Shown here: positions 54,937 to 62,274 of the stretch, in pieces
Layout: each line of letters begins with the position of its first letter
Position numbering within the stretch: position 1 is the stretch's first letter
Program-made: the position numbers and the translations under genes
Assembly: GCA_016183655.1 (NCBI GenBank)
Contig: JACPEH010000017.1
Location: 62,001 to 126,000, forward strand
Origin: Rhodocyclales bacterium
Lineage (GTDB): Bacteria > Pseudomonadota > Gammaproteobacteria > Burkholderiales > Rhodocyclaceae
DNA length: 64,000 nucleotides
Reading direction: 5' to 3'
Notes under the pieces: generated by a model
Told to the model about the DNA's origin: nothing
Databases searched by the model: none
The model's input: only the letters and a program-made list of their open reading frames with translations

Positions 54937-55893
54937 GTGACCCCGGAAAACGCCATCCTCAGCATCAGCCTGCTTGCCGCCTTCGCCGACGGCGCCAACG
55001 ACGACCGCGAGCGCGAACACATCCGCCGCTTTGCCGAGACACTCGGCGCCGACGCGCCGGACCTGCCCCGTCTCTATCAGGACGTGCTGTTCAAGCGCAT
55101 CGGGATAGCCGACGCGGCGGCAGCGCTCGACAATCTCGCTCAGCGCCAGTTTGCCTACGAGATGGCCGTCTGCGTCTGCGACGCCGACGGCTCCCAGGGC
55201 GAGGCCGAGAAGCATTTCCTCGGCGAGCTGAAGGCCCTGCTCCGGCTTGAAGGCGACGCGCAGGCCGCGGAAAGCGAACTACAGGCGGACCGACTCGCCG
55301 CCGAGCTGCTGCCACCGACGGTCGAGCGGCCGGCAGCGCCGCTGCCGACAGCGACCGCCGCCCCCCGTGTCGACGAGGCCGAGCTCGATCGCTCGATCCT
55401 CAACCATGCCATCCTCAACGGCGCCCTCGAACTGCTGCCACAGTCCTGGGCCTCGGTGGCGATCATTCCCTTGCAGGTGAAGCTGGTGTACCGGATCGGC
55501 AAGGCCTACGGCCACGAACTCGACCAGGGGCATATCAAGGAATTCCTCGCCACCGTCGGCGTTGGCCTGACCTCGCAATACCTCGAACAGTTCGGCCGCA
55601 AGCTGCTCGGCGGCCTGCTCGGCAAGGTCGCCGGCAAGACCGTCGGCAGTGTCGGCCGTGCAGCGACCGGCATCGCCTTCTCCTTCGCCACCACCTACGC
55701 CCTGGGCCAGGTCGCCAAGCGCTACTACGCCGGCAACCGGCAGATGAGCACGCAATTGTTGCAGGACAGCTTCCAGAACCTGCTCGGGCCGGCCAAGCAA
55801 CTGCAAAGCCAGTACCTGCCGCAGATCCAGCAGAAGGCGAACAGCCTCGACGCCGGCCAGATCATGGCGATGGTGCGCGGCAACACCCTCTGA
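54937..55893 (+). CDS. TerB/DUF697-like membrane-associated protein
   Basis: A 318-residue protein. The N-terminal part (about 1-105) resembles a TerB-type helical domain (AILSISLLAAFADGANDDRE, then FAYEMAVCVCDADGSQGEAE). The C-terminal part (from about 185) has Gly-rich hydrophobic helices (LLGGLLGKVAGKTVGSVGRA, then GIAFSFATTYALGQVAKRYY) typical of DUF697/YcjF proteins. Residues 115-145 form an Ala/Pro-rich linker. It starts at GTG 54937 after AAGGAG. Function is unknown; the combination suggests a stress-linked envelope protein. Confidence 0.75.
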   Translation: MTPENAILSISLLAAFADGANDDREREHIRRFAETLGADAPDLPRLYQDVLFKRIGIADAAAALDNLAQRQFAYEMAVCVCDADGSQGEAEKHFLGELKALLRLEGDAQAAESELQADRLAAELLPPTVERPAAPLPTATAAPRVDEAELDRSILNHAILNGALELLPQSWASVAIIPLQVKLVYRIGKAYGHELDQGHIKEFLATVGVGLTSQYLEQFGRKLLGGLLGKVAGKTVGSVGRAATGIAFSFATTYALGQVAKRYYAGNRQMSTQLLQDSFQNLLGPAKQLQSQYLPQIQQKANSLDAGQIMAMVRGNTL

Positions 55894-55940: not shown

Positions 55941-56052
55941 CGCTTTCTGCCTCCCGAAAAGCACAGCAAGCACAGACGATTTTCATCGTGTTAACATGTG
56001 GTGAAAACAAAAAGAACACCGTGTGTCGGCGTCACCAAGGGAGGAGAGATCC

Positions 56053-57219
56053 ATGCGGAATTTGGGCAATGCAGGGGGAAGCGGCGGCGGCAGCACCGCC
56101 CGGATCGCCGAGCTGCGCGGCATTCGCATCCGGCGGCAGGCCGGCGAACGCAACGAGAGCGGCGAGGCGCGCCTGCGCGAGCGGCTGCAGCACCTCGACC
56201 TCGACCGTTTCGCCGAACTGCGCAACGACGGCGACACGCTCGTCTGCCGCCTCGGCGCCGATATCGCCGGCGAACTGATCCCCGGCCACGACACGCTGCA
56301 ATTGGCCGAGCGCCTGCGCCGCAGCGATGGCGACGGCGGCGATGCGCTCGAACGCGAAACCGTCCTCGCCCTGCTCGCCGCGCCGCACGGCTTCGACTAC
56401 CCGAGCCACGACGAATTCGCCGCCGCCGTGCGCATCCGCTGCAACATCGCCGCCGCCGCGGCAAAGACCGCGCTCTGCTTCGACACGCGCGGCATCGAGC
56501 GCCCCGAAGACTGCTGGACCTACCATGAGGCGACCGGCTTCACGCTGCGCCCCGGCCAGCCGCTGATCCCTTCGCTGAAGAAGGCGACGCAGCCGGACCT
56601 CACCGGCAAGTGCTACGCCTTCTCCTGCTACCGCGCCACCGAATACCTGATCCTGCTCGGCATCGCCGAGGCACTGCAGGAATTCAACCCGGAACTGCTG
56701 CAGCGCTTGCAGCAACAGTGGGAAACGCGGGCGATCATGTCAGGGCGCTTCCACGACACCTTCCTGCACGAATACGGCTCGATGGACTCGCCGCTGCCGC
56801 CCCGCTACTACGTGCCCGGCGACCGCGTCTGGTTCCGCAATCCCGACGAACACTCCTCGGATGCGCCCGGCTACGAGGGTTCCTGGGTGATCTACATGGG
56901 CGGCGGGCTGTTCAGCAATTTCTGGCAGCGCGACCGGCCGTACACGCTGGCCGGCAAATGCCTGGAGGTCTACCACTGGCGCCACGCCGCCTGGCGCGAC
57001 GACAGCGGCGAATTGCAGATCGACGAGGCGGTGGTCGAGGAGCGCGTCCGGCGCAGCCTCGAAGACCCCGAGCGACACGCCGAAATCCTCGACACGATGC
57101 TGCGCTACCGCGACGCGCAGGGCGTCTACGCCGACGGCGGCTGCATCGACTCGACGCGCGAATGCCCGCGCCGGGTGTGCCCGGGAACGGCCGAGATCGT
57201 CCTGCCCGCGGTCTTCTGA
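56053..57219 (+). CDS. Remote homologue of Bacillus transglutaminase Tgl
   Basis: A 388-residue protein with no signal peptide. Its middle (about 112-310) follows, motif by motif, the spore protein-glutamine gamma-glutamyltransferase Tgl of Bacillus as I remember it. It has FDYPS (114-118), RIRCNIAAAAAK (127-138), GKCYAFSC (185-192) with Cys192 at the nucleophile, PGDRVWFRNPDE (255-266) and EGSWVIYMGGGLF (275-287). The residues matching Tgl Glu115, Glu187 and His200 appear as Ser191, Ser277 and Asn289. The N-terminal 110 and C-terminal 80 residues are extra. It stands alone, with GGAGGAGAG before ATG 56053. Activity is uncertain. Confidence 0.6.
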   Translation: MRNLGNAGGSGGGSTARIAELRGIRIRRQAGERNESGEARLRERLQHLDLDRFAELRNDGDTLVCRLGADIAGELIPGHDTLQLAERLRRSDGDGGDALERETVLALLAAPHGFDYPSHDEFAAAVRIRCNIAAAAAKTALCFDTRGIERPEDCWTYHEATGFTLRPGQPLIPSLKKATQPDLTGKCYAFSCYRATEYLILLGIAEALQEFNPELLQRLQQQWETRAIMSGRFHDTFLHEYGSMDSPLPPRYYVPGDRVWFRNPDEHSSDAPGYEGSWVIYMGGGLFSNFWQRDRPYTLAGKCLEVYHWRHAAWRDDSGELQIDEAVVEERVRRSLEDPERHAEILDTMLRYRDAQGVYADGGCIDSTRECPRRVCPGTAEIVLPAVF

Positions 57220-59467: not shown

Positions 59468-61078
59468 TCAGTGGCTGGTGCCTTCCGAACGCGTGATCTT
59501 GTTCCACACGTTGTACTTGCCGACCGGTTTCTTCGCCGGAACGCGCTTCACCTCGGCCAGCGTCTGCATGTCGATCACCAGCAGCGCGCCGTCCATCTCC
59601 CACAGGCTGGCCAGCGCGTAGCGGCCGTCCTTGGTGAACTCGACGTGGGCCAGCGTCTGCCCGGCCGGCGCTTCGATCTCCTTGACCACCGCCAGCGTCT
59701 GCTTGTCGATGATCTGCAGCTTGTTCTTGTGCTCCTTGCTCATCATCGAGTCGGTGAAGGCGTAGCGCGTGTTCTCGTGGCTGCGCATGAAGAAGCCGGG
59801 GCCGCGGGTCGGGATCTGCTTCACGTTCTCGAAGGTAGCGAGGTCGATCACCGTGATCAGCCCCTCGTTCAGGTTGGGCGAGGCCATCACCAGCCGCTCC
59901 TTACCGGCCGGGTCGGTCCACTTCCAGGTGATGCCCGAGCCGAGGTGCGGCATGCCCGGCAGGTCAAGGTCGGCGACCTTCTTGCGGCCGTCGAGGTAGA
60001 TCACCTGGCCCTTGGTCGCCGAGCGCGAGGCGCCGAGGATCTCGTCGTAGCTCTGGGTGAAGAAGAAGTCGTCGAGGTAGTCCTTCAAGAGCGTGCGGCG
60101 CGGGTAGAGGAAGCCCGGCTTGAAGTCGCCCTCCTTGTACTGGAAGTCGTGCACCAGCCCTTCGGCGACCGGCTCGGCCTGCGGGTCGTAGCTGATCTCC
60201 CAGACTTCCGGCACGTCCTTCAGCGCGGCGACGAAGCTCTTCCTGGGCGAGGCGTCGTAGACGGCGGAGACGCGCGAGGTCTTGTCGCCCTTGGCATTGG
60301 CCACCGGGATGATCCTGGTCAGCGACAGATCCTTCGCGTCGAGCACGACCAGCGTGTGCGGCAGGTAGTTGGCCACCATCACCCACTTGCCGTCACCGGA
60401 CACCGCGGCGTTGCGCGTGTTCAGGCCGGCGCGGGTCTCGGCCACCACCGTCAGGTTCCACAGGTCGTACTTGGTGATCCAGCCGTCGCGCGAGGCGAAA
60501 TAGACGAAGCGGCCGTCCGGCGAATACTTCGGCCCGCCGTGCAGCGCGTAGCGGCTGGGGAAGCGGTGGATGCGTTCGAGCTTGTCGCCGTCGAGCACCG
60601 AGACGTGGTGGTCGCCGGTCTCGACGACGATGAACAGGTTCATCGGGTCGGCGCCCTGCAAGGCCGCCGACGGCCGGTTCGGCAGGTCGAGCGCGGCCCG
60701 GTCGACGACCTGCGAGGCCTTGATCTCGGCCTCGCCCCAGACCGGCGCCGGCGTTACCTTGGTATAGATCCAGTCGGCCAGCGCCTGGATCTCGTCGGCC
60801 TTCAGCTTGTCGGCGAACGGCGGCATCTGCGTCGCCGGCCGGCTGTCGCGGATGACCTTGGCCGCTTCCGGCTTCTTCAGCCGCTCCAGGTTCTCCGGCA
60901 GCAGCGCCGGACCGACGCCGCCGAGGCGGTTCTCGCCGTGGCAGGCGAGGCAATGCTCCTTGTACAGCGCCTGCACGTTGACGCCGTCCGCCGCTTCGGC
61001 GAACGAGGCCATGCCGGACAGGAAGACCGCCAGGTAGGCGGCAGGCAGCCAGTGCCGCAGCGTGCGCTCCCAGTTCAT
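59468..61078 (-). CDS. nirN: NirN, c-type cytochrome with d1-type beta-propeller
   Basis: NirN is a periplasmic homologue of nitrite reductase NirS that acts in heme d1 biosynthesis (dihydro-d1 oxidation and transfer). The 536-residue protein has a signal peptide, a heme c site CLACHGE with Cys43-Cys46-His47, and an eight-bladed-propeller domain with repeats such as GGPKYSPDGRFVYFASRDG, NAAVSGDGKWVMVANYLPHT and HVEFTKDGRYALASLWEMDG. The heme site lies directly after the signal peptide, as in NirN rather than NirS, which has a longer leader. Its ATG overlaps the nirJ stop (ATGA). Confidence 0.9.
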   Translation of the reverse strand: MNWERTLRHWLPAAYLAVFLSGMASFAEAADGVNVQALYKEHCLACHGENRLGGVGPALLPENLERLKKPEAAKVIRDSRPATQMPPFADKLKADEIQALADWIYTKVTPAPVWGEAEIKASQVVDRAALDLPNRPSAALQGADPMNLFIVVETGDHHVSVLDGDKLERIHRFPSRYALHGGPKYSPDGRFVYFASRDGWITKYDLWNLTVVAETRAGLNTRNAAVSGDGKWVMVANYLPHTLVVLDAKDLSLTRIIPVANAKGDKTSRVSAVYDASPRKSFVAALKDVPEVWEISYDPQAEPVAEGLVHDFQYKEGDFKPGFLYPRRTLLKDYLDDFFFTQSYDEILGASRSATKGQVIYLDGRKKVADLDLPGMPHLGSGITWKWTDPAGKERLVMASPNLNEGLITVIDLATFENVKQIPTRGPGFFMRSHENTRYAFTDSMMSKEHKNKLQIIDKQTLAVVKEIEAPAGQTLAHVEFTKDGRYALASLWEMDGALLVIDMQTLAEVKRVPAKKPVGKYNVWNKITRSEGTSH

Positions 61079-62274
61079 GCTTCGCTCCGCTGGATACGCG
61101 TGTAGGGGGTGACGGTCAGGCGCTCGCCCGACGAGACGACGCCGATCTCCTCGTCGTCGAGGTAGCAGCCGGGGTCTTCCGCCCACGGGTCGCGGGTCAG
61201 CTGCTGCGCGCGCACGCGCGTGTTGCCGTTGCAGATTTCCAGATAGCGGCACTCGCCGCAGCGCCCGGTGACCGGGCGCGGGTGCTGCTTCAGCCCGGCC
61301 ATCAGCGGGTCGGAAAGATCCGGCCAGATCGCCGAGAACGGCCGCTGGCGGACGTTGCCGAGGGTGTGGTGCCACCACATGGTATCGGGGTGAACATTTC
61401 CGAGGTTGTCGATGTTGGCGACGTTCACGCCCGACGAGTTGCCGCCCCACTGGCGCAGCTTGGCTTCCACATGCGCGGCGCGCTCGGGGAAACGTTTCTG
61501 CACCCAGTGCAGGAAGTAGACGCCGTCGGCGTCGTTGTTGCCGGTGGTGAATTCCTTGTGCAAGCCGCGCTGCCGGTATTCCCAGCAGGTCTCGAAGAGC
61601 AGGTCCATCGCCCAGCGCGTCAGCTTATGCTGGGCGTCGTCCTTGCGGTTCTTGTTGCCGCGGCCGGCGTAGTTGAGGTGCGAGAAGTAGAAGCGGTCGA
61701 TGCCTTCGTCTTCCACCAGCTTCAGCAGCCCCGGCAGGTCGTGCGCGTTGTCCTGCGTCATCGTGAAGCGGACGCCGATCTTCAGGCCGAGGTCGCGGCA
61801 GCGACGGATGCCGGCGAGCGAGGCCGCGAAGGCGCCGTCCATGCGCCGGAACCTGTCGTGGGTTTCCTTGATGCCGTCGAGCGAAACGCCGACGTAGTTG
61901 AAGTCGCACTCGGCGATGCGGTCGATGTTCGAATCGTCGATCAGCGTGCCGTTCGACGACAGGCCGACGTAGAAGCCCTTGGCCTTCGCCGCCTTGGCGA
62001 TGTCGAAGATGTCCGCGCGCAGCAGCGGCTCGCCGCCGGAGAGGATCAGCACCGGCACGCGGAAGGCCTTGAGGTCGTCCATCACGCCGTAGATCTCCTC
62101 GGTCGTCAGCTCGCCGGGGAAATCCTTGTCGGCGGAGATCGAGTAGCAGTGCTTGCAGGTCAGGTTGCAGCGGCGGATCAGGTTCCAGATCACCACCGGG
62201 CCGGGGGGATTGCGCTTCGGGCCGAGCGGCGTCGGCGACGCGATCTCGTCCATGTATTGGGATATGCGGAACAT
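61075..62274 (-). CDS. nirJ: NirJ, heme d1 biosynthesis radical SAM protein
   Basis: NirJ removes the propionate side chains during heme d1 synthesis. The 399-residue radical SAM protein has the 4Fe-4S motif C36xxxC40xxC43 (RRCNLTCKHCYSIS). It also has a C-terminal SPASM-like Cys cluster (TGRCGECRYLEICNGNTRVR) and the family start YMDEIASPTPLGPKR. It is the first gene of the nirJ-nirN pair. An FNR/DNR-type site lies about 60 bases upstream. Confidence 0.95.
   Translation of the reverse strand: MFRISQYMDEIASPTPLGPKRNPPGPVVIWNLIRRCNLTCKHCYSISADKDFPGELTTEEIYGVMDDLKAFRVPVLILSGGEPLLRADIFDIAKAAKAKGFYVGLSSNGTLIDDSNIDRIAECDFNYVGVSLDGIKETHDRFRRMDGAFAASLAGIRRCRDLGLKIGVRFTMTQDNAHDLPGLLKLVEDEGIDRFYFSHLNYAGRGNKNRKDDAQHKLTRWAMDLLFETCWEYRQRGLHKEFTTGNNDADGVYFLHWVQKRFPERAAHVEAKLRQWGGNSSGVNVANIDNLGNVHPDTMWWHHTLGNVRQRPFSAIWPDLSDPLMAGLKQHPRPVTGRCGECRYLEICNGNTRVRAQQLTRDPWAEDPGCYLDDEEIGVVSSGERLTVTPYTRIQRSEA

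Follow-up and report, generated by a model that had tools for sequence, protein, structure and literature searches.

What might a relative of a Bacillus spore-coat cross-linking enzyme do in a bacterium that apparently makes no spores? The question is raised by a gene (Table 1) in a 64,000-nucleotide stretch of the genome of an Azospira-like Rhodocyclales bacterium (contig JACPEH010000017.1, positions 62,001 to 126,000; this whole stretch is the window, and its own numbering is used unless the contig is named). A preliminary description of the locus had likened the product to Bacillus Tgl, had noted changes at its catalytic positions and had proposed that it uses other residues, has a different activity or is a binding protein. 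These observations have been confirmed and the interpretation is partly supported; the structural reading was right in its main points. That the host is non-sporulating, as was assumed there, agrees with the lack of a match to SpoIVA (TIGR02836) in its 88% complete genome; the B. subtilis control was positive. What the preliminary description missed is the context of cyanophycin, a nitrogen-storage polymer made of polyaspartate with an arginine on every side chain (PMC10206079), to which the protein is very probably linked. This link is the new content of the present analysis, and no connection of the TGL family with cyanophycin was met in the open-access literature searched.

The first line of evidence comes from a survey sample of 399 genomes of the order, which were searched for the Pfam family TGL (PF20085) and for the cyanophycin synthetase domain PF18921. 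PF20085 was found in 40 genomes and PF18921 in 146, and the synthetase domain was present in 38 of the 40 genomes with PF20085 as compared with 108 of the 359 without (Fisher p 3e-16). When counted by genus, which leaves some effect of kinship, the synthetase was found in 24/26 genera with PF20085 and in 40/133 without (p 2e-9); these genus counts, like the genome sizes and gene places used for the statistics, were compiled by hand. The two PF20085 genomes without a synthetase match are G449 and G605, the latter holding a divergent PF20085 match without tblastn kinship to either of the two subfamilies, A and B, described below. The co-occurrence with cyanophycin synthesis suggests the storage polymer, and not coat-like proteins, as the substrate.

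A second line of evidence is gene order. Among 17 loci for which the protein was the only search query, and judged within the flanks available, the TGL gene lies inside a cyanophycin cluster in five (L016, L018, L021, L024 and L026). In the Alcaligenaceae relative L018 it adjoins genes for a DUF1854 protein, an ATP-binding cassette (ABC) exporter and two cyanophycin synthetase-like proteins, and NCBIfam identifies neighbours in L018 and L021 as a cyanophycin metabolism-associated ABC transporter (NF052233) and a DUF1854 protein (NF052234). Loci L082-L086, which carry four family labels and were chosen because a synthetase lay nearby, each show a full cyanophycin cluster, or part of one where the contig ends. 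The arrangement differs from locus to locus: in L083 the TGL start codon and the stop codon of the second synthetase gene, which is on the same strand, share a four-base overlap (ATGA), in L021 and L084 the TGL gene follows the ABC and DUF1854 genes on the same strand after gaps of 51 and 22 bases, and it is convergent with the DUF1854 gene in L018 and with the second synthetase gene in L082. Distances were compared in 31 genomes holding both subfamily A, to which they were assigned by score rather than each by tree, and a synthetase. This set leaves out of the 40 the two genomes whose PF20085 match has no tblastn kinship to A or B (G605 and G650), G449, and six genomes with subfamily B only, of which two, G038 (the L008 query) and G415 (L090), were examined at the sequence level and four were judged by score and profile range. 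In six of the 31 (G000, G417, G562, G626, G642 and G647) the TGL gene and a synthetase lie at most 20 kb apart, where random placement would give 0.40 (p 4e-6), and draft contigs may hide further close pairs. In G006 the TGL gene and the cyanophycin cluster are 22 kb apart. The window's own genome carries an ABC-DUF1854-cphA-cphA' cluster at contig positions 132247-139957, outside the window and 13 kb downstream of the TGL gene, which is therefore not inside the cluster; both of its synthetase genes are named cyanophycin synthetase by NCBIfam. Since the gene accompanies, and in some relatives adjoins, cyanophycin genes, its product is on balance likely to act on the polymer or its pieces.

The family membership of the protein is clear. 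Its likeness to Tgl is far above chance, with a score of 111.1 bits against PF20085 (E 7.1e-32; cut-off 23.7), whereas it scores 30.1 bits against the Tgl equivalog NF002869, for which the cut-off is 307. It is therefore a member of the TGL family that does not pass as a Bacillus Tgl orthologue. NF002869 was the sole match in an NCBIfam scan to E 10, and the protein is no member of the cyanophycinase family TIGR02069. When solved structures were searched with the family profile, the Tgl sequences 7c9j (E 1.2e-17) and 4p8i (E 9.5e-10) were found, and the only other match up to E 1 was a FliG fragment (E 0.7). A predicted structure superposes on Tgl with 233 residues aligned between model residues 23-380 and Tgl 1-245, and the protein is predicted to share the fold of the solved Bacillus enzyme. 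The preliminary description had spoken of some 190 residues added at the ends; this is true of what the Pfam match (97-293 of 388) leaves uncovered, but by the structural match the protein is about 140 residues longer than Tgl, and part of the extra length is internal.

The five motif blocks that had been described are all present in the 388-residue translation, and Ser191, Cys192, Ser277 and Asn289 are where they had been placed. Alignment with 4p8i, the letters of which confirm the Tgl numbering for Glu115, Cys116, Arg185 and Glu187, pairs Cys192 with Cys116 at the nucleophile position, Ser191 with Glu115 and Ser277 with Glu187, which bears out the loss of both glutamates; Glu275 pairs with Arg185. 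The replacement of His200 by Asn289 holds in part, in that there is no histidine in this region, but the Tgl alignments end at Tgl residue 197 and gapless extrapolation puts His200 on Phe290, one residue further on. Cys192 is the first residue of a predicted helix (192-211). Conservation was followed in an alignment of subfamily A (the best 120 of 2694 significant relatives, 7998 having been scored) and in one of subfamily B (the best 120 of 1012 significant relatives among 3685 candidates), and in both Cys192 is invariant, as is Glu275 (Table 1). The A1 and A2 profiles share members in their alignments and their comparison is not independent. Residue 289 is Asn in all 120 sequences of A, and residue 290 is either Phe (118 sequences) or Leu (2 sequences). 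In the sister subfamily B (L008 1369-2655; P0121-P0240) Gly precedes the Cys and residue 289 is Asp in 120/120, mostly followed by Tyr. An export-like hydrophobic N-terminus (peak hydropathy of at least 2.0) was seen in 93/120 of B and in 0/120 of A. As a separate observation, the L005 match in subfamily A (G005:C24:45334-46359) crosses one in-frame TGA.

In Tgl itself, activity was reported as not detected in the C116A, E115A and H200A mutants, and about 60% was retained in E187A (PMC6490927). Both subfamilies appear, from their alignments, to have lost the published partner residues of Tgl while retaining the nucleophile and an invariant acid near the Glu187 position. A role for Glu275, already suggested in the preliminary description, is compatible with these data, and we infer that it would take over from the lost Glu115 and Glu187; the protein is probably catalytic through Cys192.

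In the reaction of Tgl a side-chain acyl group is bound to the enzyme as a thioester and then transferred to an amine (PMC6490927), and by analogy an acyl-enzyme of this type on a side-chain amide would suit the beta-aspartyl amide of cyanophycin. We tentatively propose that the protein is a cysteine enzyme of cyanophycin metabolism, a proposal whose chances we put a little below even. Cys192 would attack the side-chain beta-aspartyl-arginine amide, with Glu275 standing in for the missing glutamates, and the acyl group would be passed to water so that arginine is freed. In this proposal cyanophycin as substrate, an isopeptide as the bond and hydrolysis as the outcome are each putative, and hydrolysis as the main outcome is possible rather than probable. 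Hydrolysis is preferred because TGL genomes mostly lack both of the degrading enzymes that were searched for, cyanophycinase and the PF01112 enzyme.

Classical cyanophycinase cuts the backbone of the polymer and releases beta-Asp-Arg dipeptides (PMC10206079). Neither cyanophycinase (TIGR02069) nor PF01112, to which IaaA belongs, has a match in the window's genome (88% complete); IadA was not among the families searched. Cyanophycinase was above cut-off in 2/45 TGL-bearing genomes (the 40 of the survey, with five of the window's family added) and in 12/80 synthetase genomes without TGL, taken from the 108 of that kind, or in 17/80 at E 0.001. PF01112 was present in 4/40 TGL genomes and in 29/80 of the comparison set. 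Among the 12 cyanophycinase genomes without TGL are all 8 in which the synthetase matched once, and 4 of the 72 in which it matched at least twice. There may be two kinds of cyanophycin system, as the single-synthetase genomes of this set all (8/8) carry both cyanophycinase and PF01112. In one TGL genome, G352, genes for cyanophycinase and a PF01112 protein lie about 0.2 kb apart, and another synthetase gene is found about 6 kb from the cyanophycinase gene; together they have the look of an additional cyanophycin system of the classical kind. It has been reported that a recognisable cyanophycinase occurs in 2.8% of 903 betaproteobacterial CphA1 genomes, a result called unanticipated, and isozymes not yet known were proposed (PMC10206079). 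An alternative pathway was argued in 2016 for Sideroxydans, which has two adjacent synthetase genes (PMC5178258). The TGL protein could be part of how betaproteobacteria use cyanophycin. How they use their own is an open question in print, and a family with an invariant cysteine in cyanophycin clusters makes part of it testable. A bolder version of the proposal, which we regard as unlikely, would make the protein one of the missing cyanophycin-degrading enzymes of betaproteobacteria, a cysteine isopeptidase of Tgl fold, with its acid moved to a new position, which removes arginine directly from the polymer and bypasses cyanophycinase and isoaspartyl dipeptidase, with the exported sister subfamily B serving extracytoplasmic polymer.

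Several results weigh against the hydrolytic proposal. Complementarity between TGL and cyanophycinase was considered and rejected, the difference (2/38 with TGL, 12/80 without) not being significant (p 0.22). PF01112 is rarer with TGL (4/38 against 29/80, p 0.004; 4/38 against 21/72, p 0.03, when only genomes with at least two synthetase matches are taken), but neither value is corrected for kinship. A dipeptide route may exist, since IadA and/or IaaA are reported in 70.9% of betaproteobacterial CphA1 genomes (PMC10206079). G449 has a subfamily A gene, cut by the contig end, and no synthetase match. Among the 41 genomes nearest to that of the window the link is weak, with the synthetase domain in 7/8 that have the protein as against 17/33 that do not, and two members of the same genus, G001 and G002, have the synthetase yet no TGL match. 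The TGL gene had no visible synthetase gene within 20 kb in 25 of the 31 genomes; for one of the 25, G582, the view covers the 16 kb around the gene, which contain no synthetase. Lastly, the TGL gene is absent from 108 of the 146 synthetase genomes of the order, and the protein is therefore not the general degradation route.

The last of these counts bears most directly on the best-surviving alternative, a cyanophycin transamidase, in which an amine and not water would resolve the Cys192 thioester, so that the polymer becomes tied to protein, cross-linked or furnished with lysine or polyamine side chains. This is the reaction of Tgl itself (PMC6490927), the evidence from cyanophycin clusters supports it equally, and an accessory gene, found in 38/146 synthetase genomes, is what would be expected of a modifier; because the other 108 manage without it, this alternative stays strong as a competitor. 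It sits less well with the loss of Glu115 and Glu187, or with an export-like N-terminus in most of subfamily B (93/120), which would take those proteins away from a cytoplasmic polymer, and taken as a whole we consider it somewhat unlikely. That the protein is a catalytically dead Tgl-fold protein which binds cyanophycin or its enzymes would agree with the absence of Glu115, of Glu187 and of any His in the His200 region, and with the failure to detect activity in the E115A and H200A mutants cited above. However, Cys192 and Glu275 are invariant (240/240) across two subfamilies with about 22-29% identity to the window protein, and in this superfamily the helix dipole may itself activate the cysteine (PMC10318531), so that a dead protein is distinctly improbable. 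Still less probable is a protein cross-linker or deamidase whose substrates are unrelated to cyanophycin and which is linked to it through shared lineage alone. PF20085 does carry a protein cross-linking name and the 25 genomes with no close synthetase would fit, but the contacts with the cluster come from several family labels and differ in gene order, and the association holds at genus level. A cell-wall amidase of the NlpC/P60 type is hardly credible, although TGL has been placed beside these peptidases, with which it shares a papain-like core (PMC10318531).

Other branches of PF20085 were also seen. Gammaproteobacterial loci L028, L029 and L030 were set aside, as their proteins have other motifs and are unmatched by the window protein, and no above-cut-off synthetase was found in the three genomes. 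These proteins have an Asp-Cys motif, and the L029 gene has FliMN_C and SPI-1-type secretin N0 genes as its flanking neighbours, so the branch may be part of a secretion system. A further gammaproteobacterial protein, L027 (G222), keeps a Glu-Cys motif, and its genome has a 1073-bit cyanophycin synthetase on another contig.

Table 1. Features of the TGL gene, in window coordinates (A and B, subfamily alignments)
Feature	Position	Strand	Basis
TGL-fold protein gene (388 aa, P0001)	56053..57219	+	open reading frame translation
Purine-rich, ribosome-binding-like stretch before ATG	56038..56048	+	read in sequence
Pfam TGL profile match (residues 97-293)	56341..56931	+	profile match
Ser191 codon, Tgl Glu115 position	56623..56625	+	Ser 120/120 in A, Gly 120/120 in B
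Cys192 codon, putative nucleophile, Tgl Cys116 position	56626..56628	+	Cys in 240/240
Glu275 codon, candidate replacement acid, 2 residues before Tgl Glu187 position	56875..56877	+	Glu in 240/240
Ser277 codon, Tgl Glu187 position	56881..56883	+	Ser in 239/240
Asn289 and Phe290 codons, around Tgl His200 position	56917..56922	+	relatives' alignment
His308 codon	56974..56976	+	His 120/120 in A, Gln 120/120 in B

The ATG start of the gene is favoured over a GTG at 56023 because of the purine-rich stretch that precedes it; a promoter and terminator scan gave nothing useful. The gene upstream, at 54937-55893 (+), encodes a DUF533/TerB-like product that also matches DUF697 weakly. This gene was considered as a further conserved neighbour and rejected, being matched, among the loci compared, only in copies of the window's own stretch (with crude frame picking and many short flanks). 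A chorismate lyase-like gene (PF04345; 57271-57936, -) is convergent with the TGL gene, and at 59468-62274 (-) the gene for a cytochrome d1-domain protein adjoins that of a radical S-adenosylmethionine protein, a pair which we take to resemble heme d1 or nitrite reductase genes. A plasmid or phage origin was not upheld, the TGL protein being unmatched in a plasmid collection (to E 1e-3) and a phage collection (to E 0.1), and phage or defence families gave no match to E 1.

Of the known systems, classical cyanophycinase (CphB/CphE, TIGR02069) would share with the TGL protein its substrate, cyanophycin, but it is a separate family and has no match in the window's genome. The NF052233 transporter and the NF052234 DUF1854 protein share gene clusters with the TGL gene but are unrelated to it as proteins; in the window's own genome their genes precede cphA, at a distance from the TGL gene. 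DUF1854 was not found named together with cyanophycin in the open-access literature searched. The closest comparison is with Bacillus Tgl (PF20085; 4p8i, 7c9j), with which the window protein shares its sequence family, its predicted fold and the cysteine at the nucleophile position. It differs in having Ser for Glu115 and Glu187, in lacking a His in the His200 region and in its length of 388 rather than 245 residues, and also in a host without a SpoIVA match and in the cyanophycin neighbourhood of its relatives' genes. If the proposed function is correct, the known range of the Tgl fold would widen beyond spore coats to include a storage polymer.
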